From: Bacteroidota bacterium
GTDB lineage: Bacteria; Bacteroidota; Bacteroidia; Flavobacteriales; Schleiferiaceae
Length of the DNA: 39,488 nucleotides
Assembly (NCBI GenBank): GCA_016868755.1
Contig: VGFU01000012.1
Location: forward strand, 1-39,488
Direction of reading: 5' to 3'
The notes below the pieces were generated by a model. That model had not been told where the DNA came from and ran no database searches. It was given only the letters and a program-made list of their open reading frames with translations. A program made the position numbers and the translations under genes. Below, piece after piece: positions 19,745 to 29,929 of the stretch (position 1 is its first letter; every line of letters starts with the position of its first letter).

Positions 19745-20788
19745 ATGGCGAATTTGCCGCGGAATTCCGCAGTTTTGGTGCTTGCATGGCCCGAGGTGAC
19801 CGCCCGAGGTGAAGAAGGAATCCTCAAAGTTCTTCGTTCCATCGGGGTGGTTAAAAACGTGAACATGATGGTGGGTCATGCTGCCATGATGGTGGCCGAC
19901 GGCACTGACCTGCGCTACTACGATTTCGGACGCTACATTACGCCCCGCCGCATGGGACGCATCCGTTCGGGGGAAACCGATCCGGCCTTGGCGTTTGCAA
20001 CGGTTCCGCAGTGGGACGCCGAAGGCAAATTAACCAACGTAGAAGCCATTTGCCACGAGCTTGACGCGAAGTCGGCGGCCACCCACGGCGAAGGCCTGCT
20101 GCAGCTCTCGATTTACTACACGCCCAATGTGGACTTGGTCGAGGCCAAAGCGCGCGAACTGCAGTTTGGCGGGCTGATTGGCTACCACGGCCTCGACCCC
20201 AAGCAGACCAATTGTGCGCGCTTCGTGCAAACTTCGCTTTTGGCAGGCATTGGCCACGAGCCCAGCCACCACCGTCGCTACCGCCGACCCATTACCTACT
20301 CCGCGCCGACGCCTTTTTTTAACGTGCTTGCAGCCGCTCAAGACGGTTCCAGCTACCTAGAGTGGCGCAGCGGTCAAGCGACCTGGAAGCAGGCCCCTAT
20401 GGTCAAAGCTTGGTGGGACGTGACCGCCAAGATCTTTGCTTCAGCCAGCCGCAGTAAAACCACCCACCTCAACCGCGACGAGGTAGTGGGCAAGCTCGAA
20501 GCGCCGGCCCAACGGCCCGGTGACGTTCCGCTGCACGCTGAGTATTTGGGCGGAATCGGGGAGGGGGCCTGGTACGTCGCCCATCCGTCGGCCGACCAGC
20601 TGATTTATTCTGAACGCTGGTCCTACGCAGGCAACCTCGAGTACCAGGCGCACTACCTCGCTGAAGAAACCCTGGTCCGCCAGCTGGCCGACCGCGAGGC
20701 CCGATTGACGCACGACAGCCATTTTGCCTGGCTGACCCTTGAACAAAGTAACGGAATGAAGCACCGGGCCTACCGGCACCACGAATGA
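19745..20788 (+). CDS. DUF6695 family protein, possibly a permuted NlpC/P60-like fold
   Basis: This 347-aa protein has no signal peptide. The segment VLVLAWPE followed by VGHAAMMVADGTDLRYYDFGRYITPRRMGR (here cited as VGHAAMMV and YYDFGRYITP) and later TNCARFVQTSLLAG resembles proteins I know as DUF6695 from Flavobacteriia; function is unknown. The order His45 (GHAAMMV) then Cys157 (NCARFV) is the arrangement of circularly permuted papain-like folds (YiiX/LRAT group), which cleave or transfer acyl groups. That fold assignment is inference. The gene is first in a three-gene operon: its stop overlaps the next ATG (ATGA). The partners are two PLP enzymes, so a role in processing an amino-acid-containing molecule is plausible. 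Confidence 0.8.
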   Translation: MANLPRNSAVLVLAWPEVTARGEEGILKVLRSIGVVKNVNMMVGHAAMMVADGTDLRYYDFGRYITPRRMGRIRSGETDPALAFATVPQWDAEGKLTNVEAICHELDAKSAATHGEGLLQLSIYYTPNVDLVEAKARELQFGGLIGYHGLDPKQTNCARFVQTSLLAGIGHEPSHHRRYRRPITYSAPTPFFNVLAAAQDGSSYLEWRSGQATWKQAPMVKAWWDVTAKIFASASRSKTTHLNRDEVVGKLEAPAQRPGDVPLHAEYLGGIGEGAWYVAHPSADQLIYSERWSYAGNLEYQAHYLAEETLVRQLADREARLTHDSHFAWLTLEQSNGMKHRAYRHHE

Positions 20789-22173
20789 TACAGCAATGGC
20801 TTTTAGCGGGATGCGACGAACGCATCGCGCTGCGCCCCGAAACGGACGCCAACCAGTACAACCTCAACCCCATGAAGTACGAGGGGCTGTTGATGCGTGG
20901 TTCGTGCACCTGCGGTACCCTGACGCCGGCGGGTCACGAAACGGCCCGGCGCTTTGAGCGCGACTACCGCGCCGCCGACGACGCTCAGTGGATGCGCACC
21001 CAAACCAAGCGCATACAGCAGCTTTTTGGCGGCGGGCGCAACGACGAATTCCACGTCTACTTCGGACCCTCGGGCAGCGACATGATGTACTGGCCGCTGC
21101 TGATGCAGTCGATGCTCAACCCCGGCCAACGCATCACCAACATCGTGAGCTGCCCCGAGGAACTGGGTTCAGGCTCCATTTTGGCCGCCGAAGGCAAGTA
21201 CTACGCCAACCAAAACCAGTTTGGCGCTACGGTTCCCAAGGGCGGGATGGTCACCGTGGCCCTCGACGTCGACGTACAGTTTTTGCCCGCCCGCGAAGAC
21301 AGCGGCCACATTTCTGACCGCAAGCAGGCGATTCGCGACATTATCGCGGCGCGTCCTGGGCAGCCAATCGTTGGCAATTTGGTATTTGGCTCAAAATCAG
21401 GAATTAAGGACGACCTCGACATCATCGATGAGTTTCGCGACGGAGTGATGTGGGTGGTCGACATGTGCCAGTTCCGCACCCACCGCGGCTTGGTCCACGA
21501 GCTCATTTCAAAGGGCGTGATGCTCATGGTAACTGGTTCTAAGTTTTACCAGGCTCCGCCTTTTTGCGGAGCTCTTTTGGTTCCCAAATTCTGGACCGAA
21601 CGCTTGGCTGGGCGCCCGGTTGACCACCTTGCGGCCTACGGCGCTTTGTTTGCGTCGGCAGACGCTCCGCCCGACCTGCCGCAGCTGCGCGCCCTTTGGC
21701 CCGAGTACGCCAACGTCGGACTCCGCTTGCGCTGGGAAATCGCCCTCGACGAAATGGAGGCCTACTTAGCCTACCCCCAAGAAGAAACTGACGCGCTCAT
21801 TCGTCGCTGGAACCGCGTGGTGGTGGGCCGCCTCGCCCTGAGCGACCGATTTGGCATGATGCCCGACATTGAGTTGACCAACGACAGCATTATTTCGTTT
21901 ACGGTATCGGCGGGTGGCCGCGAGCTCGACTACGACCAACTCAAAACCTTGTTTGACCGACTGGTGCTAACCAACCACACAGGGTTCAACGGGTTTCACC
22001 GGGTTTTCATGGGGCAGCCGGTGCGCTACGGCAAGCGCTCGTTCATTCGCTTGGCCCTTGGATCGTACTCCATTCGCAAAATGATGGGGGCTTATGGTTT
22101 TGACCCCTTTAACGACCTTCACCTGGTGGATTTGATCGAATCAACCGCCGTTCAGCTTTTCGAGCATTCGTGA
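20785..22173 (+). CDS. PLP-dependent enzyme, aminotransferase fold type I, unknown substrate
   Basis: This 462-aa cytoplasmic protein is not one I can name. Fold type I features are visible: a phosphate-binding PSGSD (about 95-99), VVDMCQ with Asp226 for the PLP ring nitrogen, and VTGSKFYQAPPFCGALLVP with Lys253 as the likely Schiff-base lysine. The C-terminal small domain includes IELTNDSIISFTVS and a hydrophobic RFGMMPD-type strand. The N-terminal NPMKYEGLLMRGSCTCGTLTPAG is distinctive and Cys-containing. It overlaps both neighbours by 1-4 bp, indicating coordinated translation with the DUF6695 protein and a second PLP enzyme. It could be an aminotransferase, a lyase or a desulfurase-like enzyme. 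Confidence 0.72.
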   Translation: MIQQWLLAGCDERIALRPETDANQYNLNPMKYEGLLMRGSCTCGTLTPAGHETARRFERDYRAADDAQWMRTQTKRIQQLFGGGRNDEFHVYFGPSGSDMMYWPLLMQSMLNPGQRITNIVSCPEELGSGSILAAEGKYYANQNQFGATVPKGGMVTVALDVDVQFLPAREDSGHISDRKQAIRDIIAARPGQPIVGNLVFGSKSGIKDDLDIIDEFRDGVMWVVDMCQFRTHRGLVHELISKGVMLMVTGSKFYQAPPFCGALLVPKFWTERLAGRPVDHLAAYGALFASADAPPDLPQLRALWPEYANVGLRLRWEIALDEMEAYLAYPQEETDALIRRWNRVVVGRLALSDRFGMMPDIELTNDSIISFTVSAGGRELDYDQLKTLFDRLVLTNHTGFNGFHRVFMGQPVRYGKRSFIRLALGSYSIRKMMGAYGFDPFNDLHLVDLIESTAVQLFEHS

Positions 22174-23414
22174 TGCATCCGCTCGCCGAAGAAGCCGTTT
22201 GGGCCGCCAATGCCCTTCGCCCGCTGAAAACCGCGCAGGACTCGTCGGTTCTTTTGGTGTCGTGGAACGCCCTCGATGCCTACCTCGATGCGCTCGCCGC
22301 ATGCTGGGGCCACGAGCGCGCGGTGCACGCCGTCGCCATTAAGTCGCAGCCGCATTCCGCGGTGCTGCGCCACATCGTGGTCCGGGGATTTGGCCTCGAA
22401 GCCGCCACCTGGGAAGAGGTATTGCTCGCCCGGGCTGCGGGATGTCCGCCCGAGCGAATCGTGTTTGATTCGCCCGTTAAGCGGCCTCACGAGCTGGAGG
22501 ATTGCGCCGCCAACAGTCCCGGAATGCTCGTCAACGCCAACAGCCTCGAGGAACTTGATCGCCTGAAGCCATTTGCCGGACGGCTGCGCTTGGGCCTCCG
22601 AATCAATCCTATGGTTGACGTGGACGCTCCTTCAGTCTACCAGGTGAGCGGAGACGAGTCCAAGTTTGGAACGCCCATCGCCGACCGTGCGGCAATCCTC
22701 GAAGCCGTGCTTGCGCATCCGATCGAAGCGCTTCACGTGCATTCCGGTTCGTCAATGAACGATACCCACGGAGCCGTACGCGCGCTCACCCGACTTCGCG
22801 ACCTGGCCGTGGAGGCCAACGAGCGCCTTGCTGCCGCTGGATCTGGCCGCCGCATTACGACCCTTGACATCGGGGGAGGGCTGAAGCCCGAGCACCTCGA
22901 TGGGCAGGGTTCGGCGCCCCAGATGACTGCCTACGCGCGCGCACTTCGCGCTGCGGTTCCTGAACTTTGGTCCGACTTTAGCCTCGTTACCGAATTCGGT
23001 CAGTGGACCCATTTTCACACGGGCTATGCCCTTAGTGACGTCGAATACGTATTGCCGCGCGGGGACCGTTCGGTCGTTTACCTTCATCTGGGGGCGGACT
23101 TTTTGCTTCGCGACGCTTACGTACGTCCGAGGGGCATTTCGTGGCTTCCGCTGCGCGAAGGTGCCGAAGTGGTCGGTAGGCCGGTGCTCACAGACCTAGC
23201 GGGACCCCTGTGCTTCGCGGGCGATTACCTCGAAAAAGGGTGCATGCTGCCCCAGCTCCAAGCCGGCGACGAGGTGCTCTTTTTGGGTACCGGTTCCAAC
23301 GCCTACGCGCTGTGGTCGCGGCACACCTCGCGGAGCATTCCCGCCGTCTACGGTGTGGACTACGCAAATCGCCGACTCGAACTCCTTTCGGAGCGGACCA
23401 ATCCATTTATTTAG
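22173..23414 (+). CDS. PLP-dependent decarboxylase/racemase-like enzyme, fold type III
   Basis: With the ATG at 22173 this is a 413-aa protein; a GTG at 22170 is also possible. It has the alanine-racemase-like barrel of the Orn/Lys/DAP decarboxylase group. Lys57 sits in VAIKSQPH (the PLP lysine), His188 and His190 in LHVHSGSS, the glycine loop in LDIGGGLKP (about 232-240), and Cys347 and Asp351 in GPLCFAGDYLEKG. The usual EPGR motif is replaced by EFGQ (about 274-277), so the substrate probably differs from diaminopimelate. The C-terminal beta-domain reads GDEVLFLGTGSNAYAL. It is the last gene of the operon, joined to the aminotransferase-like gene by TGATG. Confidence 0.78.
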   Translation: MHPLAEEAVWAANALRPLKTAQDSSVLLVSWNALDAYLDALAACWGHERAVHAVAIKSQPHSAVLRHIVVRGFGLEAATWEEVLLARAAGCPPERIVFDSPVKRPHELEDCAANSPGMLVNANSLEELDRLKPFAGRLRLGLRINPMVDVDAPSVYQVSGDESKFGTPIADRAAILEAVLAHPIEALHVHSGSSMNDTHGAVRALTRLRDLAVEANERLAAAGSGRRITTLDIGGGLKPEHLDGQGSAPQMTAYARALRAAVPELWSDFSLVTEFGQWTHFHTGYALSDVEYVLPRGDRSVVYLHLGADFLLRDAYVRPRGISWLPLREGAEVVGRPVLTDLAGPLCFAGDYLEKGCMLPQLQAGDEVLFLGTGSNAYALWSRHTSRSIPAVYGVDYANRRLELLSERTNPFI

Positions 23415-23482: not shown

Positions 23483-23515
23483 AAAAAAAAAGAGGCCGCC
23501 CATCGGGCGGCCTCT
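23483..23515 (-). terminator. Rho-independent terminator of the T9SS adhesin gene
   Basis: A perfect 11-bp stem (23491-23501 with 23505-23515) with a 3-nt loop is followed on the minus strand by a run of T residues (the A-run at 23483-23491 on the plus strand). It is directional for the leftward gene. The plus-strand operon ending at 23414 gains no T-tract from it. Confidence 0.9.
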
Positions 23516-23539
23516 CGTGTTTGGCGAGCAGCCAGGTGC

Positions 23540-26500
23540 TTAGCGTACCACGACGCGAAGAACCGACTGGCCCTCCGCACCGCTGAGGCGCAGCATGTAG
23601 ATGCTTTTTGCGTAGTCGCTCAGGTCCATCGGTACCTCAAGAACGGCGGTCCGCTTCTCGACCGGAATCGAGGCAACCACTTGGCCCATGAGGTTGAGAA
23701 CTTCAAGCTGACCTTCAAACTGCTCCGCACCGCTGATGCGCACTTGGAAGGCGCCGCTGTTCGGGTTCGGGAAGGCCATCATCTGCTGGTTGAGCACATT
23801 CTCACCCAAGCCGATGTGCGACGTTACCACAAACGATACTACGTCTGAAGTGTTACAGGTCGAGTCAGTAACCGTCAGGGTTGCTGTGAACACCCCTGCT
23901 GAACCGTAGCTGTGGCTGACCGTGTCGCCGGTAGCCGTGCCACCGTCGCCGAAGGTCCAGCTAAAGGTCTGGCCCGTAGAACCGCCTGCGTAGAAGTCGA
24001 AGCTACCGGTAGCCGCGTTCACTTCGAGGAAGCTCGCTACGGCATCAGCGCTCGTTGAGTCGATGTTGAGGGTCACCGGCGTGCGCAGGTTTGAACAAGC
24101 TTGAACTTCAGCCACCACCTTCATGTTTGGACGGTTGTTGCTGTAGGTCGCAGAGGTAATGGCGCCCGGAGTACAGCCACTGGCCGTTGAAAGATCAGCG
24201 AAGCCATCGATTGTTCCCGTGCGGCTCAGTGTCTCGTATCGGACTGTTGAGTTTGAGGTCCACGACGTGTTGTCGAAGCAAATCTCAAATACCATGTGGC
24301 TCGTTCCGTCCCACATTACCGGCGTGGTGAAGTTGTGAAGGTTCCATCCCGCATTAGCTACATATGATGCATTGGTATATACAGTAGTAAATGCGGTACT
24401 GGTAATCCAACCTGAAGCTGGGATACTCGCAACATTACCCGCTTTAATTGCAAAGTTGTTCATTCCTTGCGCTGCAGCAGTTACTACGTCAAATGACAGA
24501 CCACTAATCATAGATGGAGCCGAACTACCTAATAACGTAGCAAGTTCATCTGCATAAACGATGTACTGTGCACGACCGTCCATGTAGAAGGTCTTGTAGG
24601 GAGTAATGTTCGTGCCCGTAGAGGTCAAGGTGCCAGTACCAGTAACCAAGGTGTCGAGTGACGAAGTGTAGCCAAGGTAGTAAGTTGAGCCGTTCACCGG
24701 AACCGAAAGCGAGTCGTTGGTACCCAGCTTCGTCGTGTCAGTAGCCGAAGCGTACCATGCGTAACGAACACCCGGGATCGGCTGTGCAACGAGGAGTCCC
24801 GTCGTAGCATTGAAGCAGGTCGGGTCTAACGATACTGCGGCCGGAGCGAACGGAGTCACGCTGCGTGGCGTAGCGTAGGTCAACGTGTCGTTGTTCGGAA
24901 CCTGGTCGCCCGCAAGAACAACCCATCCGCGTACGTTGAAGTTGCCGCCGGCGTAGGTGTTGAATGGTCCAACAACCACGGTATCGGTGGTGAAGTTGGC
25001 CAAGTTCTGGCTAGTCAGGTTGACTGTTTGAACTTGAACACCCGCGGGTCCCGTGATTTCTACGCTCACGCTGTAGGTCGTAGCGGCAATGTTGCCTTTG
25101 TTCTTCACGATCACGTTGGTGTAGGCCGTAGAGTCGCCACAACCGGCGATTCCGTCAAAAGACTCAACGGTCATGTCGTTGTTGATCGGCGTGTACTCGT
25201 CGGCACCAATGTCGGGGGTGGTCGTCGAACGAACGTCGCCGTCGATGTCGGTTGTTACCGATGCGATTGGAGTACCCAAGTTGTTGGGTCCGCCATTTAC
25301 CACGTGGAGGTCAGCTGCCGAAGCAAATACAACGGGAGCTTGAACCGAGTTCACGTTAAGAGTCGGTTGCGCCGTCTGCCACGCGGCCAGCGACGTGAAG
25401 TTCGCCGTGCCGAAGTAGCACATGTTCGTACCACCTGACTGGTAGAGGTTGTAGTTCAACGTCAACGAGTCCATGGTTCCGCTCTGGTAGTATGCGTACG
25501 AACCACCCTTGAAGATGTTGTTGCGCACATCCACATTCTTAGAGATCAAGGTTGGTGTAGTACTAGAAAGTACAAAGTAACCGTAAGTGCTTCCTGCAAA
25601 CGTATTGTTGTGAAGGTCTACGTGACGGATGTAGGGGAAGTATCCCGCGTAGCTAGCCGTCGAACCAAACATGTTGTTGGCAATAACGCTCTTCGTGGCA
25701 GGCTTTGACGCGTTGTTTAAGTACCCTAAGGTGAGTCCGTAGAAGTACGGATTGGGTACGTTGTTGCGCTGAATGTTCACGTTTCCAACATAGTATGCAT
25801 AGATACCGTAGTTGATTGCGTTTCGGTAGTCCTTAATGGTGTTACCGTGCATCGTCAAACCGCCAATGTAGTAGAAGTAGGCACCGTAGTAGTACGACTT
25901 CAAGATTTGGTTGTTGTTGATGGTGAAGCCCGTATTGAAGCTCGTCGTCGTGTTTCCGTTTAAGCGAATTCCGTAGTAACCGCCCTTAATCACGTTGTTG
26001 GTAATTGTGATGTCGTTGGCGTTGTTACCGTAGGTTGACGTTGAGGTCAAGCTACCGGTGCTTACAATACCACACACGAGGCTCGAAGTTCCGGTAGTAT
26101 CTGCCCAAATCGTGTTGTTGTGGATCGTAATGTATTGGGCGTTGTCGGTCAAAAGCACGCCGGTCATGGTCGGACCATTGATGCGTAGGTTTTGAACCTT
26201 AACGTACTTCGTTCCCATGAAGGTTACTGCTGCAGCCTGTCCGCCAGCACCCTTGATTTCGGCGGTGCCGCCAGAAGCGCCTTGGAAGGTTACCAGGTTG
26301 GTTGCACTTGCTCCAGGAATCTGGGCGAGGGCAAGGCCAACAGGGTGAACATACCCCGCAAGGGTTAGGGTAACTGGACCTGACACGCCACACGTCTGAA
26401 GCGCTTGAACGGCCGCTGCGATGGTCTTGAAGTTGGTTGCGCTCGTGGCCAAGTTCGAGTCAATGGTATAAGCACCACTTAGTGCACTCAAACATGGTGT

Positions 26501-29500
26501 AGTAAACGTGAACGGTCCAACCCACTGGCCAAGTGCGGTCGCACACGACGTCTGAATGTAGATCTGGTACTGCGTTCCCGGAGTCAAGCCCGTGAGCGTG
26601 TAGGGGTTGGTGGTCGCCGTGGCCGTGTTGGCACCTGAACCGCCCGAACCGATGATAAAGCCCGAAGGTCCCCATGCGATTTGTGCACTGCCGCTAACGG
26701 GGTTGCCGTTAACGGTCCATCCCAAGGTGGCGGAGTTACTCGTCGTCGTCATCGTCACGTTGGGTACCGGACAAGGCGTTTGTGTGGCGCTCAAGGCTAC
26801 GTTGTCAATAAACAAATCGTAGTCGGTGGCTCCATGTGTGGCGCTCGAAACCGTGCTTTCGATGTAGAAGGCAATTTTAACCAGCCCTGTGTAGGCGCTC
26901 AAGTTCAGAGAGTAGCGTCCGCCCGTGGGGCTGATGCCGCTTAGACGATGGTATTTAGCAAGGGCTTGGCTGCGGTTCCACGTCGTGCCATTATTAGTTG
27001 AGATCAGGACAAACAAGGTGTCGTCGTTACCCATAACTCCAGCGGAAGCAGCGCTACCCAAAGTAGCAGCCATATCCCATTCAAAGAAAGTCGTGTGGGC
27101 TACGTTCCCAAGATCCAGGGTTGGGGTAATAGTCCAACCTTGGGTATTGTTTGAGGTCAAAGGCACGTTATTGCGAACAGCTCCAGTGGTGCCCACGTTG
27201 CGGTAGCCATCTTCCATCCAAGCCGAGGTAGAGGTGCCTGCCGGAGTAGGATTCGCAGCAAGTCCATTGCGCTCGGTCCACGACATTGGCTTGACTGTGG
27301 CACCCGTGGGATCATACCCATTGCTAAATGGCTCTAGCCAGCCAACTTGAGCTGGAGTAGTAAAGCTATAGGGTCCAACCCAAACCGACGTTTGACCGCT
27401 GCCACAGTTACCTGCGACATACAAATCATATGCAGTGTAGGAGCTTAGTCCACTAAGGTTGGTCGTAGTCGTCGATACCGTAGACCCTTGTCCAGTGCCT
27501 GGGGTGAACCCCTTGGGTCCCCACTGTAGATTCACGTTTGGAGAAAGGCTGCTGTAGCTCACCGTAGCGGTTGTAACGCGCACGTTAGTGATCTGTACGT
27601 TAAATGGCGCGGGGCAACCTGAAGGGGTGAATTCTACCGCACCGATATCGGGAATAGTGTCGCGGTTTGCCTTGTTAAGATCTAGTGGCACTTGGCTGAA
27701 TACGTTGGCACCCGCATTCTTGTATGCCCACGAGTTGGGGGTAATGTCTCCTGCAGCAGCGTTAATGAAAAGAGGGCTCGTAGAAATCGAGTTGGCATCA
27801 CGTCCTGTTGCGGTATTCCAAGCTGCAAGGGTGGCATAGGTCACCGTAGTGCTGCGTGCAGCGGCAAAATTGGCAGTTCCACCAGCCCCATTAAACAGGA
27901 TGGAGTTGTTGTTGGAATTTATGAGCGTCGTAGTAGAAGCGTTAAATATCCCGTACTTCGAACCGGTGCTCGGTGATGCGATACTTATGATGTTATTGAA
28001 GAAGTTAACCCTATTCATATTCACTCCTGAGAAGTAGGCTCCGTACACCGTAGCTGTACCAGTAGAAGAAAGAGAACCTAGGTCAATGGTATTGTGGTAC
28101 ACATTCATAGTGTCTCCTGAGAACGAAGCGATTGCATAGTTAATACCATTATTATTATTAATGTTATAAATAGCATTATTAGCAATTAACACAGGGTTAG
28201 CGTTACTTCCGGTTAAGCTACTGAAGTACATCGGGTAGCAACTGAATGTAGTTGTGCCTAATGATCCGCCAGGGCTGTGTATGCGGTTACCTACGAGTTT
28301 GAATCCAGGACTACGACTTACAGCATATACGCCGTAGAAAGTAGTTACTGAAGAGCGAGTACTTCGGTTAATATTATTGTACTCGAGCACTAGGTTGTTC
28401 TGGCCGTTGATATAGAAACCATAAATGTAGAAGTCTGAAATCGTTGAATTAGAGACTTTATTATTCGTCGGGCGCAATGACATGTTAGAGCTATTGCCAT
28501 TTAGGCATACACCGTAATATCCACCTACTATCTGGCATGAGTCTACAGTAAGGTATGAGGCCAATGTTCCTCCAGCCGTGGTTGCTGAAGTCGCTGAAGA
28601 GGACAGTACAAGGCCAGAATAGTTAAGACTTGTTAGGCTCTCATTAGACTTGATAATACAGCGCTTAAACGTGTTGTAATCAGCATTATTATTAAGCCGC
28701 ACAGCCCAACCAAATTCTGTGGTGGTTGAACCAGTTGCATGAATTACCAAATCTTCAAAACGCAGGTAGTCGGCACCGTTGAGGTAAAGTACGTGGCGCG
28801 CGTTACCGATGGTAGACGTGTACGAAAGCGTGTTGTTGTTGCCCTTCACCGTGATGGTATTGGTGGCCGACATTCCAGGGATTGAGCCAATCTCAATTTG
28901 CTCTACGAACGGTGCGGAGTTCGCGAGGACTTGGAATATTACAGGCCCTGCAACGCCACATGAGGCTGCAGCGAATGCCGCGGTGAAGCTGGGGTAAGTT
29001 CCGCCCGAACCGATGGTGTAAGTTCCGGCGGCCAGGTTGGGAAGGGTATTGATGAATACCGGGGCAGAGGCGCCGCTTGCCGAAGCCGCGGCACAGTTTA
29101 CCACGCAACGGTAGTGACTGTTAACTGTTTGAGAGGTAGTGTAGTTGAAGGCGGTAGCTCCGGGGATTGCCGTCCAAGGTCCAGACGCGGACGGGGCAAT
29201 TTCCCATTGGTAGGTAAGGCCGCTCGCCAAAGACTGCCCGGTGAGTGAGAGGGTGAAGCTTTGGTTCGGGCAAACGCTCGTCGTCGAGGCAACTGTGGTT
29301 CCGCCATTAATCGGGCTCGCACACGCTGTGGCAGGCGTGATGCTCAGCTGCATGTTGGGACGGTCTGAGAATGAGCCGGTTCCAGTGAGCGAGCAACCGG
29401 CAGCACCGTCGGTGTTGTGGTTAGTGGTCGATACAAACGTAGCGGTGTGCGACATGACTTGACCGTCTGTCGTGTAGGTCGTATTGTCAAAACATATGTC

Positions 29501-29929
29501 GATAAGAATGTTATCTACTCCGTTCCACACGAATGGTGTGGCAAACGTGTGGGTGTACCAACCGGTGGTGGTGATACTCACCGTAGTGGGCCCCATAACT
29601 GTAGTGGGGTTTGTCGGACTCATGAAGGTTGCCGTTAGTGCCGTAGTGGACACACCTGCCATCTTGATGGTGAAATCGGCCATCGGCTGACCCGGCACCG
29701 TGGTAACGTTGAAACCCAAAGAGGTTATGGTACCAGGCCCAGAACCTGCGGCAATTAATTCCGTTGCCCGGATCAAGTATTGGGCCCGGCCGTCGTGCCA
29801 AAAGGTTTTGTAGGGAGTGATGGTCGTTCCAGTGGTCGGAGTGGTTCCGGTACCAATGGTAAAGACCTGGGCAGAAAGTTGGAGGGAACCCGCCAACATG
29901 GCCAAAAGGACTAGTAGTTTACGCACCAT
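23540..29929 (-). CDS. Giant secreted beta-helix/FN3/PKD protein with T9SS type A sorting domain
   Basis: This 2129-aa mosaic protein has a signal peptide (1-20, LQLSAQ). It contains module A (about 30-200, with TPYKTFWHDGRAQY), an Ig-like domain (215-295), a first right-handed beta-helix (about 300-770, Asn-rich), FN3 (770-860) and a jelly-roll-like region (862-1046). Then come FN3 (1048-1143), a second beta-helix (1150-1583), a CARDB-like region (1583-1700), module B (1765-1945, repeating TPYKTFYMDGRAQY), PKD (1956-2033, FSWTFGDGG) and a C-terminal T9SS sorting domain (about 2043-2129, AFPNPNSGAFQVRI). It should be exported by T9SS and attached to or released from the cell surface, probably as an adhesin or polymer-binding protein. 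The first beta-helix is strikingly AT-rich. The gene is monocistronic, with its own terminator. Confidence 0.9.
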   Translation of the reverse strand: MVRKLLVLLAMLAGSLQLSAQVFTIGTGTTPTTGTTITPYKTFWHDGRAQYLIRATELIAAGSGPGTITSLGFNVTTVPGQPMADFTIKMAGVSTTALTATFMSPTNPTTVMGPTTVSITTTGWYTHTFATPFVWNGVDNILIDICFDNTTYTTDGQVMSHTATFVSTTNHNTDGAAGCSLTGTGSFSDRPNMQLSITPATACASPINGGTTVASTTSVCPNQSFTLSLTGQSLASGLTYQWEIAPSASGPWTAIPGATAFNYTTSQTVNSHYRCVVNCAAASASGASAPVFINTLPNLAAGTYTIGSGGTYPSFTAAFAAASCGVAGPVIFQVLANSAPFVEQIEIGSIPGMSATNTITVKGNNNTLSYTSTIGNARHVLYLNGADYLRFEDLVIHATGSTTTEFGWAVRLNNNADYNTFKRCIIKSNESLTSLNYSGLVLSSSATSATTAGGTLASYLTVDSCQIVGGYYGVCLNGNSSNMSLRPTNNKVSNSTISDFYIYGFYINGQNNLVLEYNNINRSTRSSVTTFYGVYAVSRSPGFKLVGNRIHSPGGSLGTTTFSCYPMYFSSLTGSNANPVLIANNAIYNINNNNGINYAIASFSGDTMNVYHNTIDLGSLSSTGTATVYGAYFSGVNMNRVNFFNNIISIASPSTGSKYGIFNASTTTLINSNNNSILFNGAGGTANFAAARSTTVTYATLAAWNTATGRDANSISTSPLFINAAAGDITPNSWAYKNAGANVFSQVPLDLNKANRDTIPDIGAVEFTPSGCPAPFNVQITNVRVTTATVSYSSLSPNVNLQWGPKGFTPGTGQGSTVSTTTTNLSGLSSYTAYDLYVAGNCGSGQTSVWVGPYSFTTPAQVGWLEPFSNGYDPTGATVKPMSWTERNGLAANPTPAGTSTSAWMEDGYRNVGTTGAVRNNVPLTSNNTQGWTITPTLDLGNVAHTTFFEWDMAATLGSAASAGVMGNDDTLFVLISTNNGTTWNRSQALAKYHRLSGISPTGGRYSLNLSAYTGLVKIAFYIESTVSSATHGATDYDLFIDNVALSATQTPCPVPNVTMTTTSNSATLGWTVNGNPVSGSAQIAWGPSGFIIGSGGSGANTATATTNPYTLTGLTPGTQYQIYIQTSCATALGQWVGPFTFTTPCLSALSGAYTIDSNLATSATNFKTIAAAVQALQTCGVSGPVTLTLAGYVHPVGLALAQIPGASATNLVTFQGASGGTAEIKGAGGQAAAVTFMGTKYVKVQNLRINGPTMTGVLLTDNAQYITIHNNTIWADTTGTSSLVCGIVSTGSLTSTSTYGNNANDITITNNVIKGGYYGIRLNGNTTTSFNTGFTINNNQILKSYYYGAYFYYIGGLTMHGNTIKDYRNAINYGIYAYYVGNVNIQRNNVPNPYFYGLTLGYLNNASKPATKSVIANNMFGSTASYAGYFPYIRHVDLHNNTFAGSTYGYFVLSSTTPTLISKNVDVRNNIFKGGSYAYYQSGTMDSLTLNYNLYQSGGTNMCYFGTANFTSLAAWQTAQPTLNVNSVQAPVVFASAADLHVVNGGPNNLGTPIASVTTDIDGDVRSTTTPDIGADEYTPINNDMTVESFDGIAGCGDSTAYTNVIVKNKGNIAATTYSVSVEITGPAGVQVQTVNLTSQNLANFTTDTVVVGPFNTYAGGNFNVRGWVVLAGDQVPNNDTLTYATPRSVTPFAPAAVSLDPTCFNATTGLLVAQPIPGVRYAWYASATDTTKLGTNDSLSVPVNGSTYYLGYTSSLDTLVTGTGTLTSTGTNITPYKTFYMDGRAQYIVYADELATLLGSSAPSMISGLSFDVVTAAAQGMNNFAIKAGNVASIPASGWITSTAFTTVYTNASYVANAGWNLHNFTTPVMWDGTSHMVFEICFDNTSWTSNSTVRYETLSRTGTIDGFADLSTASGCTPGAITSATYSNNRPNMKVVAEVQACSNLRTPVTLNIDSTSADAVASFLEVNAATGSFDFYAGGSTGQTFSWTFGDGGTATGDTVSHSYGSAGVFTATLTVTDSTCNTSDVVSFVVTSHIGLGENVLNQQMMAFPNPNSGAFQVRISGAEQFEGQLEVLNLMGQVVASIPVEKRTAVLEVPMDLSDYAKSIYMLRLSGAEGQSVLRVVVR

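Follow-up and report, generated by a model that had tools for sequence, protein, structure and literature searches.

A conserved pair of pyridoxal phosphate enzyme genes with a lineage-specific TseH-DUF6695 companion in a Bacteroidota genome

The operon and its three predicted proteins

We analyzed a 39,488-nucleotide stretch of Bacteroidota DNA (the window; contig VGFU01000012.1 of assembly GCA_016868755.1, positions 1 to 39,488), focusing on three overlapping genes, here called A, B and C, that occupy positions 19745-23414 of the forward strand as read from the open reading frames (ORFs) and the sequence itself. B and C encode predicted pyridoxal 5'-phosphate (PLP) enzymes whose genes recur as a pair in many genomes, with A as a lineage-specific companion. 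The window genome comprises 1.62 Mb in 70 contigs and is 96.9% complete; its closest public-contig matches are labelled Bacteroidota, Cryomorphaceae and Schleiferiaceae, and from these labels we take its family, f1 below, as Schleiferiaceae. The features of the locus are:

19745..20788, forward strand: A, a TseH-DUF6695 protein, permuted NlpC/P60 (papain-like) with His45...Cys157 and a C-terminal DUF6695 beta domain (Pfam, alignment, AlphaFold2)
20785..20788, forward strand: ATGA shared by the A stop and the B start (sequence)
20785..22173, forward strand: B, a fold type I PLP enzyme, class V aminotransferase-like, with Schiff-base Lys253 and Asp226 (AlphaFold2, alignment)
22171..22175, forward strand: TGATG shared by the B stop and the C start (sequence)
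22173..23414, forward strand: C, a fold type III decarboxylase-family protein with Lys57 and Cys347-Phe348 (Pfam, alignment)
23490..23516, reverse strand: a strong 12-pair hairpin and T-run between C and the convergent gene (terminator-like consensus scan, which is not evidence of function)

A first-pass annotation had described both gene overlaps, and these are confirmed at the positions above, with C starting at ATG 22173 (the ORF lister instead places it at GTG 22170). Its assignment of the two PLP enzymes to fold types I (Lys253) and III (Lys57) likewise agrees with Pfam, AlphaFold2 and structural matches.

B matches no Pfam or NCBIfam family above cut-off, a single NCBIfam line at 0.16 being chance, and represents a PLP enzyme family unnamed in the libraries used. 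The PF00266 profile gave no match for B itself and one among 50 B relatives (E 0.032), and an hhalign comparison of B with eight single class V-type proteins of the genome returned nothing (E 0.014-0.75) and is uninformative. A sequence search of the PDB with B returned no relative, and with a profile the best value, 0.14, was at chance level. The AlphaFold2 model of B, built from a 46-row alignment, is of high quality (predicted local distance difference test, pLDDT, 89.6; predicted template modelling score, pTM, 0.89), and a second aligner placed it nearest to 2-aminoethylphosphonate transaminase, NifS/IscS, alanine-glyoxylate aminotransferase, kynurenine transaminase and phosphoserine aminotransferase, tied at Z 21.6-23.2 among the 50 matches listed. 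Two of the 50 do not carry class V names: 9os7, which ranks first (a tRNA synthetase with N-terminal ancillary domains), and 2dr1 (PH1308). Foldseek put serine hydroxymethyltransferase first, mixed with class V enzymes, aminolevulinate synthase and a tryptophan decarboxylase. Fold type I is thus a firm prediction from the model, and class V is the best reading of it, though not the sole one. Lys253, in a TGSKF motif, and Asp226 are invariant in 50 of 50 rows, and Arg422 is present in at least 90%; like its counterpart in class V enzymes, it may bind the carboxylate of the substrate. B shares with the class V aminotransferases and NifS-like proteins (PF00266) the predicted fold (Z about 23), the PLP lysine and the aspartate, but differs from them in lacking a family-level sequence match and in its distinct conserved N-terminal motifs.

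C falls into the ornithine/diaminopimelate (DAP)/arginine decarboxylase family (PF02784, 3.1e-29; PF00278, 5.7e-7), and the solved structures closest to it are DAP decarboxylases. With LysA it shares the family, Lys57, His188, the Arg313 column and Cys347; however, its score against the LysA model TIGR01048 is less than half the cut-off (133.2 versus 297.9 bits). We compared 75 C rows, from 70 of the 80 loci described below, four others and the window, excluding one wrong ORF (LysA_L168). Lys57, in the fold type III barrel (PF02784), is present in all 75, as are the signature PLC[FY]xGD, Arg313 and Tyr316; Trp381 is found in 74. The residue after the active-site cysteine is Phe in 74 rows and Tyr in one, versus the Glu of the DAP decarboxylase motif GPxCES, and E[FY]G takes the place of the EPG seen in 9 of 11 comparison rows. 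In the window the motif reads GPLCFAGD, aligned to GPLCESGD of 2yxx, so that the DAP-decarboxylase-like Cys/Asp pair noticed earlier holds only in part: the cysteine and the later aspartate are retained, but the intervening Glu is replaced by Phe. In a tree, 74 C rows lie on one side of a branch with support 92/89 (94% of bootstrap trees) that falls short of the tool's 95/80 mark, and LysA-like and other decarboxylase-family relatives lie outside it; the tree held 11 usable other rows plus LysA_L168, and partial or masked C rows were left out. Judged by sequence, C is its own clade within the DAP-decarboxylase fold rather than a member of LysA. The first-pass annotation made its system claim depend on neither PLP protein belonging to a characterized family with a known substrate; B matches none, and C, although related to the characterized DAP decarboxylases, falls outside LysA. 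In DAP decarboxylase, the Glu after Cys faces the distal amino group of the substrate; its loss in C, where the Arg is kept, hints at a substrate with a distal carboxylate and no distal amino group.

An apparent fusion of C to a fourth domain of ~440 aa, in the family's second lineage, was rejected as read-through of N-masked stretches. Such stretches downstream of C, in L055, L061 and similar loci, give false long ORFs in simple ORF callers.

In A, Pfam identifies TseH (PF25218) at residues 11-169 (8.4e-35; 120.6 bits versus a cut-off of 27) and DUF6695 (PF20405) at residues 265-336 (1.3e-8; about 35.5-38.6 bits versus 25). His45, His114 and Cys157, the last in an Asn156-Cys157 pair, are invariant in 33 aligned rows and in 28 rows, the catalytic order is permuted (His before Cys), and no signal peptide is obvious by eye. 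For the AlphaFold2 model (pLDDT 84.9, pTM 0.83), the second aligner gave TseH 6v98 as the nearest solved fold (Z 16.1, root-mean-square deviation 2.8, 171 aligned, residues 4-216), followed by YiiX (Z 8.0) and by HRASLS2 (Z 5.1) and CLN5 (Z 5.0), the latter two weak and proving little alone. Run by itself, Foldseek gave no fold for A at E 0.001, and its top rows were HLA chains with a probability of at most 0.06. A 2026 paper equates the TseH clade with DUF6695 and groups it with LRAT, YiiX and DUF4105 among the permuted NlpC/P60 proteins, a lipid-acting group that includes HRASLS and in which DUF4105 is the Bacteroides lipoprotein N-acyltransferase Lnb (PMC12994826). Given the TseH-like fold and this lipid-acting group, acyl chemistry is, by analogy, a better guess for A than peptide cleavage. 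A resembles TseH/DUF6695, YiiX, LRAT-HRASLS and Lnb in domain, His-before-Cys order and fold, and differs from them in sitting in an operon with metabolic PLP enzymes.

B and C as the conserved unit

To gather relatives, a species-genome collection was scanned with short peptide patterns taken from the B alignment, which gave 85 confirmed relatives and missed others; the best 80 loci were kept. In 76 of these 80 loci, collected by B alone, C lies directly after B on the same strand. As for the remaining four, L030 and L088 stop at the contig end, L052 has its C cut by the contig end, and L104 begins C by ATGA and then breaks. The stop of B overlaps the nearest possible C start (as distinct from the called start) by four bases in 39 of the 76. 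The loci are mostly from Bacteroidota, with single metagenome-assembled genomes (MAGs) labelled Calditrichota, cyanobacterium, Myxococcales and Acidimicrobiales, labels that may be wrong.

The same picture emerges at narrower scales. B is present in 18 of 196 genomes of the order: 11 hold a short B, each with an adjoining C (in G150 split across two contigs, L003 and L020), and seven hold a distant B match within a 692-701-aa frame, for which tblastn of short flanking stretches finds no C. Among 395 genomes of the phylum, 15 match B at 1e-20, and the ~530-aa distant B of two families, f38 and f68, also has an adjoining C. In the window genus (21 genomes of 1.3-1.8 Mb), C was found in 18 and not in three; one genome, G130, at 97% completeness, has none of A, B and C. 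Retention of C in 18 of 21 genomes of a streamlined genus suggests that the product is worth its cost. Our search of the literature on these families and on amide-linked polysaccharide pathways, with subscription papers outside its scope, found no description of the B-C pair. A phage or virus origin was considered and rejected, with no match in phages and none of 44 pattern-fitting viral-contig stretches confirmed.

A behaves differently. It adjoins B upstream in 28 of the 80 loci. Of the order's 196 genomes, 39 carry DUF6695: eight together with short B and C (all in f1) and 31 without B. The B-less genomes contain small frames of 88-112 aa only in 29 cases (27 in f11, one in f5, one in f15) and A-like proteins in the other two, both from f3. 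Within f1 (30 genomes), full-length A is found in eight of nine genomes with short B-C and in none of the 21 others. A is therefore a lineage-specific companion, tied to B within its own family, and the A-B-C trio is not one fixed system. The tight coupling of genes that the first-pass annotation had proposed survives in the B-C pair; its proposal that DUF6695 and both PLP genes form one system does not, since by that annotation's own criterion it fails: DUF6695 is mostly found without the PLP genes. The surviving unit is B plus C.

Several further genes lie near A. In 11 A-B-C loci, C is followed by a gene of the IgGFc-binding/CHU_C type (cluster 16, one member identified), and in nine loci a gamma-glutamyltranspeptidase gene comes after this IgGFc gene (cluster 23, one member identified; L031 8897-10627 and relatives). 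IgGFc-binding/CHU_C type IX secretion proteins lie near A both with and without an adjoining B-C pair (L151 1534-7365, L152 7635-11983, L031 2688-9011). Outside the B-C context, A-type DUF6695 genes adjoin or overlap TANGO2/NRDE-family genes (PF05742) at L155 6175-7885 and, in H22, on Emticicia plasmid NC_018742.1 at 66004-66621; the TANGO2/NRDE protein is a possible functional partner of A in general.

Glycan neighbourhoods and exchanged decarboxylases

At loci without A, the B-C pair often stands among surface-glycan genes, including uronic-acid makers, sugar aminotransferases, asparagine-synthase-like ligases and sulfotransferases. We scanned 115 neighbouring genes of at least 120 aa at positions -2, -1, +2 and +3 from B at 35 loci (31 of the 80 and four others) that have neither A nor a YfhO-type gene in the available stretch. 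Counted without a background set, the commonest families, among the first 25 of 110, are DegT, Asn_synthase, UDP-sugar dehydrogenase and sulfotransferase (six proteins each) and GATase_7 (five), followed at four each by Polysacc_synt (Wzx), Polysacc_synt_2, epimerase, Wzi, hexapeptide transferase and glycosyltransferase 2. Of the 457 ORFs no more than three genes away from B, nine encode asparagine-synthase-like proteins, versus 0 of 603 farther away (Fisher 5e-4), an enrichment biased by a profile that was seeded with two of the nine. Directly before B, the Calditrichota locus has a gene with a glucuronyl-C5-epimerase domain and a weakly asparagine-synthase-like gene. The divergent gene next to the pair encodes a YfhO-like membrane protein (28.1 bits versus a cut-off of 28.5) in the window family's second lineage. 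On a tree of 91 B proteins, from which L023, L025 and also L157 and L158, whose contigs equal those of L083 and L082 in length, were omitted, the contexts as we labelled them require 16 changes, compared with a shuffled mean of 53.7; contexts thus track clades yet switch several times around the B-C core. The locus in the cyanobacterial MAG (L084 8601-13080) has the order methyltransferase, B, C, O-methyltransferase, a small cluster that makes it a candidate place to look for the product.

In two distant relatives, the partner of B is a different decarboxylase. On a Rhizobium tumorigenes plasmid, a B homologue with 27.8% identity overlaps a PF00282 pyridoxal-dependent decarboxylase gene, and the one genome examined of three in the Bacteroidota family f32 encodes a 1214-aa fusion with a B domain at 199-687 and a PF00282 domain at 732-1197, the latter belonging to the same subfamily as the Rhizobium tumorigenes decarboxylase (phmmer 2.2e-123). 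Fold type I and fold type III decarboxylases are unrelated, so that in these cases the partner of B looks constrained by activity rather than by descent. Because a PF00282 decarboxylase of unrelated fold takes the place beside B in both, the exchange suggests that the second step is decarboxylation; that B pairs with decarboxylases of two unrelated kinds gives a pointer, ahead of any biochemistry, to the sequence of the reactions.

Other genes were seen around the plasmid-borne relatives. The gene before the Rhizobium tumorigenes B (L021 7149-8861), annotated as a tetratricopeptide repeat protein, has a weak ATP-grasp (Synapsin_C) match below cut-off and may possibly encode a third kind of ligase. 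On the Sinorhizobium medicae plasmid pSMED03, typed conjugative (L025/L191), two giant nonribosomal peptide synthetase (NRPS) genes of ~27 kb each lie directly upstream of the B homologue, with SagB-type dehydrogenase and phosphopantetheinyl transferase genes downstream.

A proposed amine-building module and its alternatives

Our tentative reading, which we consider possible and somewhat short of probable, is that the B-C pair acts as a conserved PLP module whose two steps make a dedicated amine, which a lineage-specific enzyme then conjugates to a glycan, peptide or lipid. B would form or convert an amino acid, perhaps by transamination, and C would remove the carboxylate from its product to leave the amine. 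In Saprospiraceae, f14 and others, the amine would be conjugated, probably as an amide, by asparagine-synthase-like ligases together with surface-glycan machinery; in rhizobia it may be conjugated via an NRPS; and in the window family A most likely transfers or removes an acyl group, which would give an N-acylated (lipid-type) amine, or tunes the amine. The earlier suggestion that the genes build a diamine or amino acid for conjugation is in this way kept as an inference, with B-C building an amine ahead of a conjugation step, and loses the trio as its conserved unit. The substrate of the B-decarboxylase module is testable with two proteins.

A more specific version, which we regard as doubtful, holds that B, as a new PLP family, leads with a fold type III or fold type I decarboxylase to an amine undescribed in bacteria, that A would N-acylate this amine from phospholipid to give a new phosphorus-free aminolipid in streamlined marine relatives, and that related bacteria would amide-link the same amine to capsule. 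Acylation of the amine by A, if real, would bring a further, metabolic role to a domain that the 2026 paper discusses mainly as a toxin (PMC12994826).

Known systems indicate that a pathway of this kind exists. In Campylobacter jejuni, capsule amides of serinol and ethanolamine are made from the products of an aminotransferase-type enzyme and a decarboxylase: among Cj1436, Cj1437 and Cj1438, a decarboxylase converting serine phosphate to ethanolamine phosphate and a maker of serinol phosphate supply the amines, and a ligase domain amidates them onto glucuronic acid of the surface polysaccharide (PMC12409886). Compared by description rather than by sequence, the B-C pair is a different solution: there the amines are alternatives, whereas here the enzymes are near-obligate partners and the decarboxylase is of fold type III, and in place of the ligase the window has a permuted NlpC/P60 protein. 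Both amine-making enzymes of C. jejuni are, we assume, PLP enzymes. C also matches TIGR03099 (3.9e-21) and two neighbouring ligases match TIGR03108, all far below the cut-offs; we take these models to describe the decarboxylase and amidotransferase of the exosortase-A extracellular polysaccharide locus.

Beyond the lack of a background set and the seeded profile, several observations weigh against this reading. The glycan loci come mostly from one Saprospiraceae-Portibacter clade and the nine asparagine-synthase loci represent about five lineages, so that they are not independent. A uronic-acid maker and an amide ligase stand beside the PLP genes at other loci, but the window operon, its neighbours named by eye only, has no adjoining glycan or ligase gene among the window ORFs. 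In f3, three loci whose B relative is ~690 aa long yielded no C (PF00282 was not sought there), and a decarboxylase adjoins B in only one of five plasmid loci read. The other four show no annotated decarboxylase next to B: B shares four bases with an NRPS or AMP-binding gene in Sinorhizobium medicae and R. leguminosarum, in Rhizobium sp. 007 it overlaps an unannotated long ORF (>2,980 aa), and in Neorhizobium the homologue follows D-aminopeptidase and D-Ala aminotransferase genes. With respect to A, in G140 and G188 it and B sit on different contigs, A close to IgGFc-binding/CHU_C genes; no DUF6695 match accompanies the B-C pair of G193, although the model is weak on these proteins, scoring even the A of the window at 38.6 bits versus 25. 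Both DUF6695 and TseH domains are common without B; TseH occurs in 24 of 295 genomes of the class, of which G000 and G253 are known to hold B, the B search having covered the rest in part. Lastly, TseH is reported as a phospholipase, not an N-acyltransferase, and in one of two assay kinds, the activity being seen by fluorescence and undetected by mass spectrometry (PMC12994826).

Among other readings, an unlikely one has B and C degrading or racemizing a D-amino acid or an unusual one, while the conjugation genes beside them are there by chance. Class V folds include epimerases and lyases, and the Neorhizobium homologue lies in a D-amino-acid gene context; against this, B and C are tightly coupled within dense glycan clusters, and the overlaps with NRPS or AMP-binding genes recur on Sinorhizobium and R. 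leguminosarum plasmids.

The most serious rival, which we nevertheless judge quite improbable, is that C is simply the DAP decarboxylase of lysine synthesis in a streamlined genus, with B and A as coincidental neighbours. The window genome yielded no PF02784 protein other than C; the C-profile search, which detects LysA at about 1e-38, returned C as its single match in 18 of the 21 genus genomes and nothing in three; and DapF is present in 20 of the 21, where canonical LysA was found in none. However, in one f14 genome (G014) C coexists with a LysA-like gene of canonical type, all 75 C rows have Phe or Tyr in place of the Glu that follows Cys, C forms a separate clade, the 97% complete G130 has neither LysA nor C, and the B-C pairing persists across phyla. 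The window genus, where DapF but no canonical LysA was found, may be auxotrophic for lysine or use another decarboxylase.

At about the same low level of plausibility, A-B-C could trim or recycle peptidoglycan peptides, A acting as a cysteine peptidase to release a fragment with DAP or a D-amino acid, which B and C would then convert. The resemblance of C to DAP decarboxylase, the D-aminopeptidase and D-Ala aminotransferase genes of Neorhizobium and an earlier proposal that TseH is an endopeptidase (cited in PMC12994826) fit this scheme, but the group to which A belongs is permuted and lipid-acting, A has no signal peptide by eye, and neighbourhoods elsewhere are largely glycan-biosynthetic. 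That A is a conflict toxin (a type VI secretion-type effector) and the operon serves bacterial warfare is very improbable: A has the TseH domain and conflict contexts of its clade are reported (PMC12994826), but in 28 loci the genes right after A encode two metabolic enzymes, A accompanies B-C within its family, and the A-B junction in the window has no room for an immunity gene, although no search aimed at immunity or type VI secretion genes was made.

Around the operon itself, the upstream reverse-strand genes resemble, by eye, a sulfurtransferase with a metallo-beta-lactamase domain and a TauE-type exporter. The capsule gene PF05159 was looked for in the window genome and not found. Downstream of C, the convergent reverse-strand gene at 23540-29929 encodes a repetitive 2129-aa protein that looks secreted by eye, and the hairpin at 23490-23516, on the same strand, would serve at least this gene.

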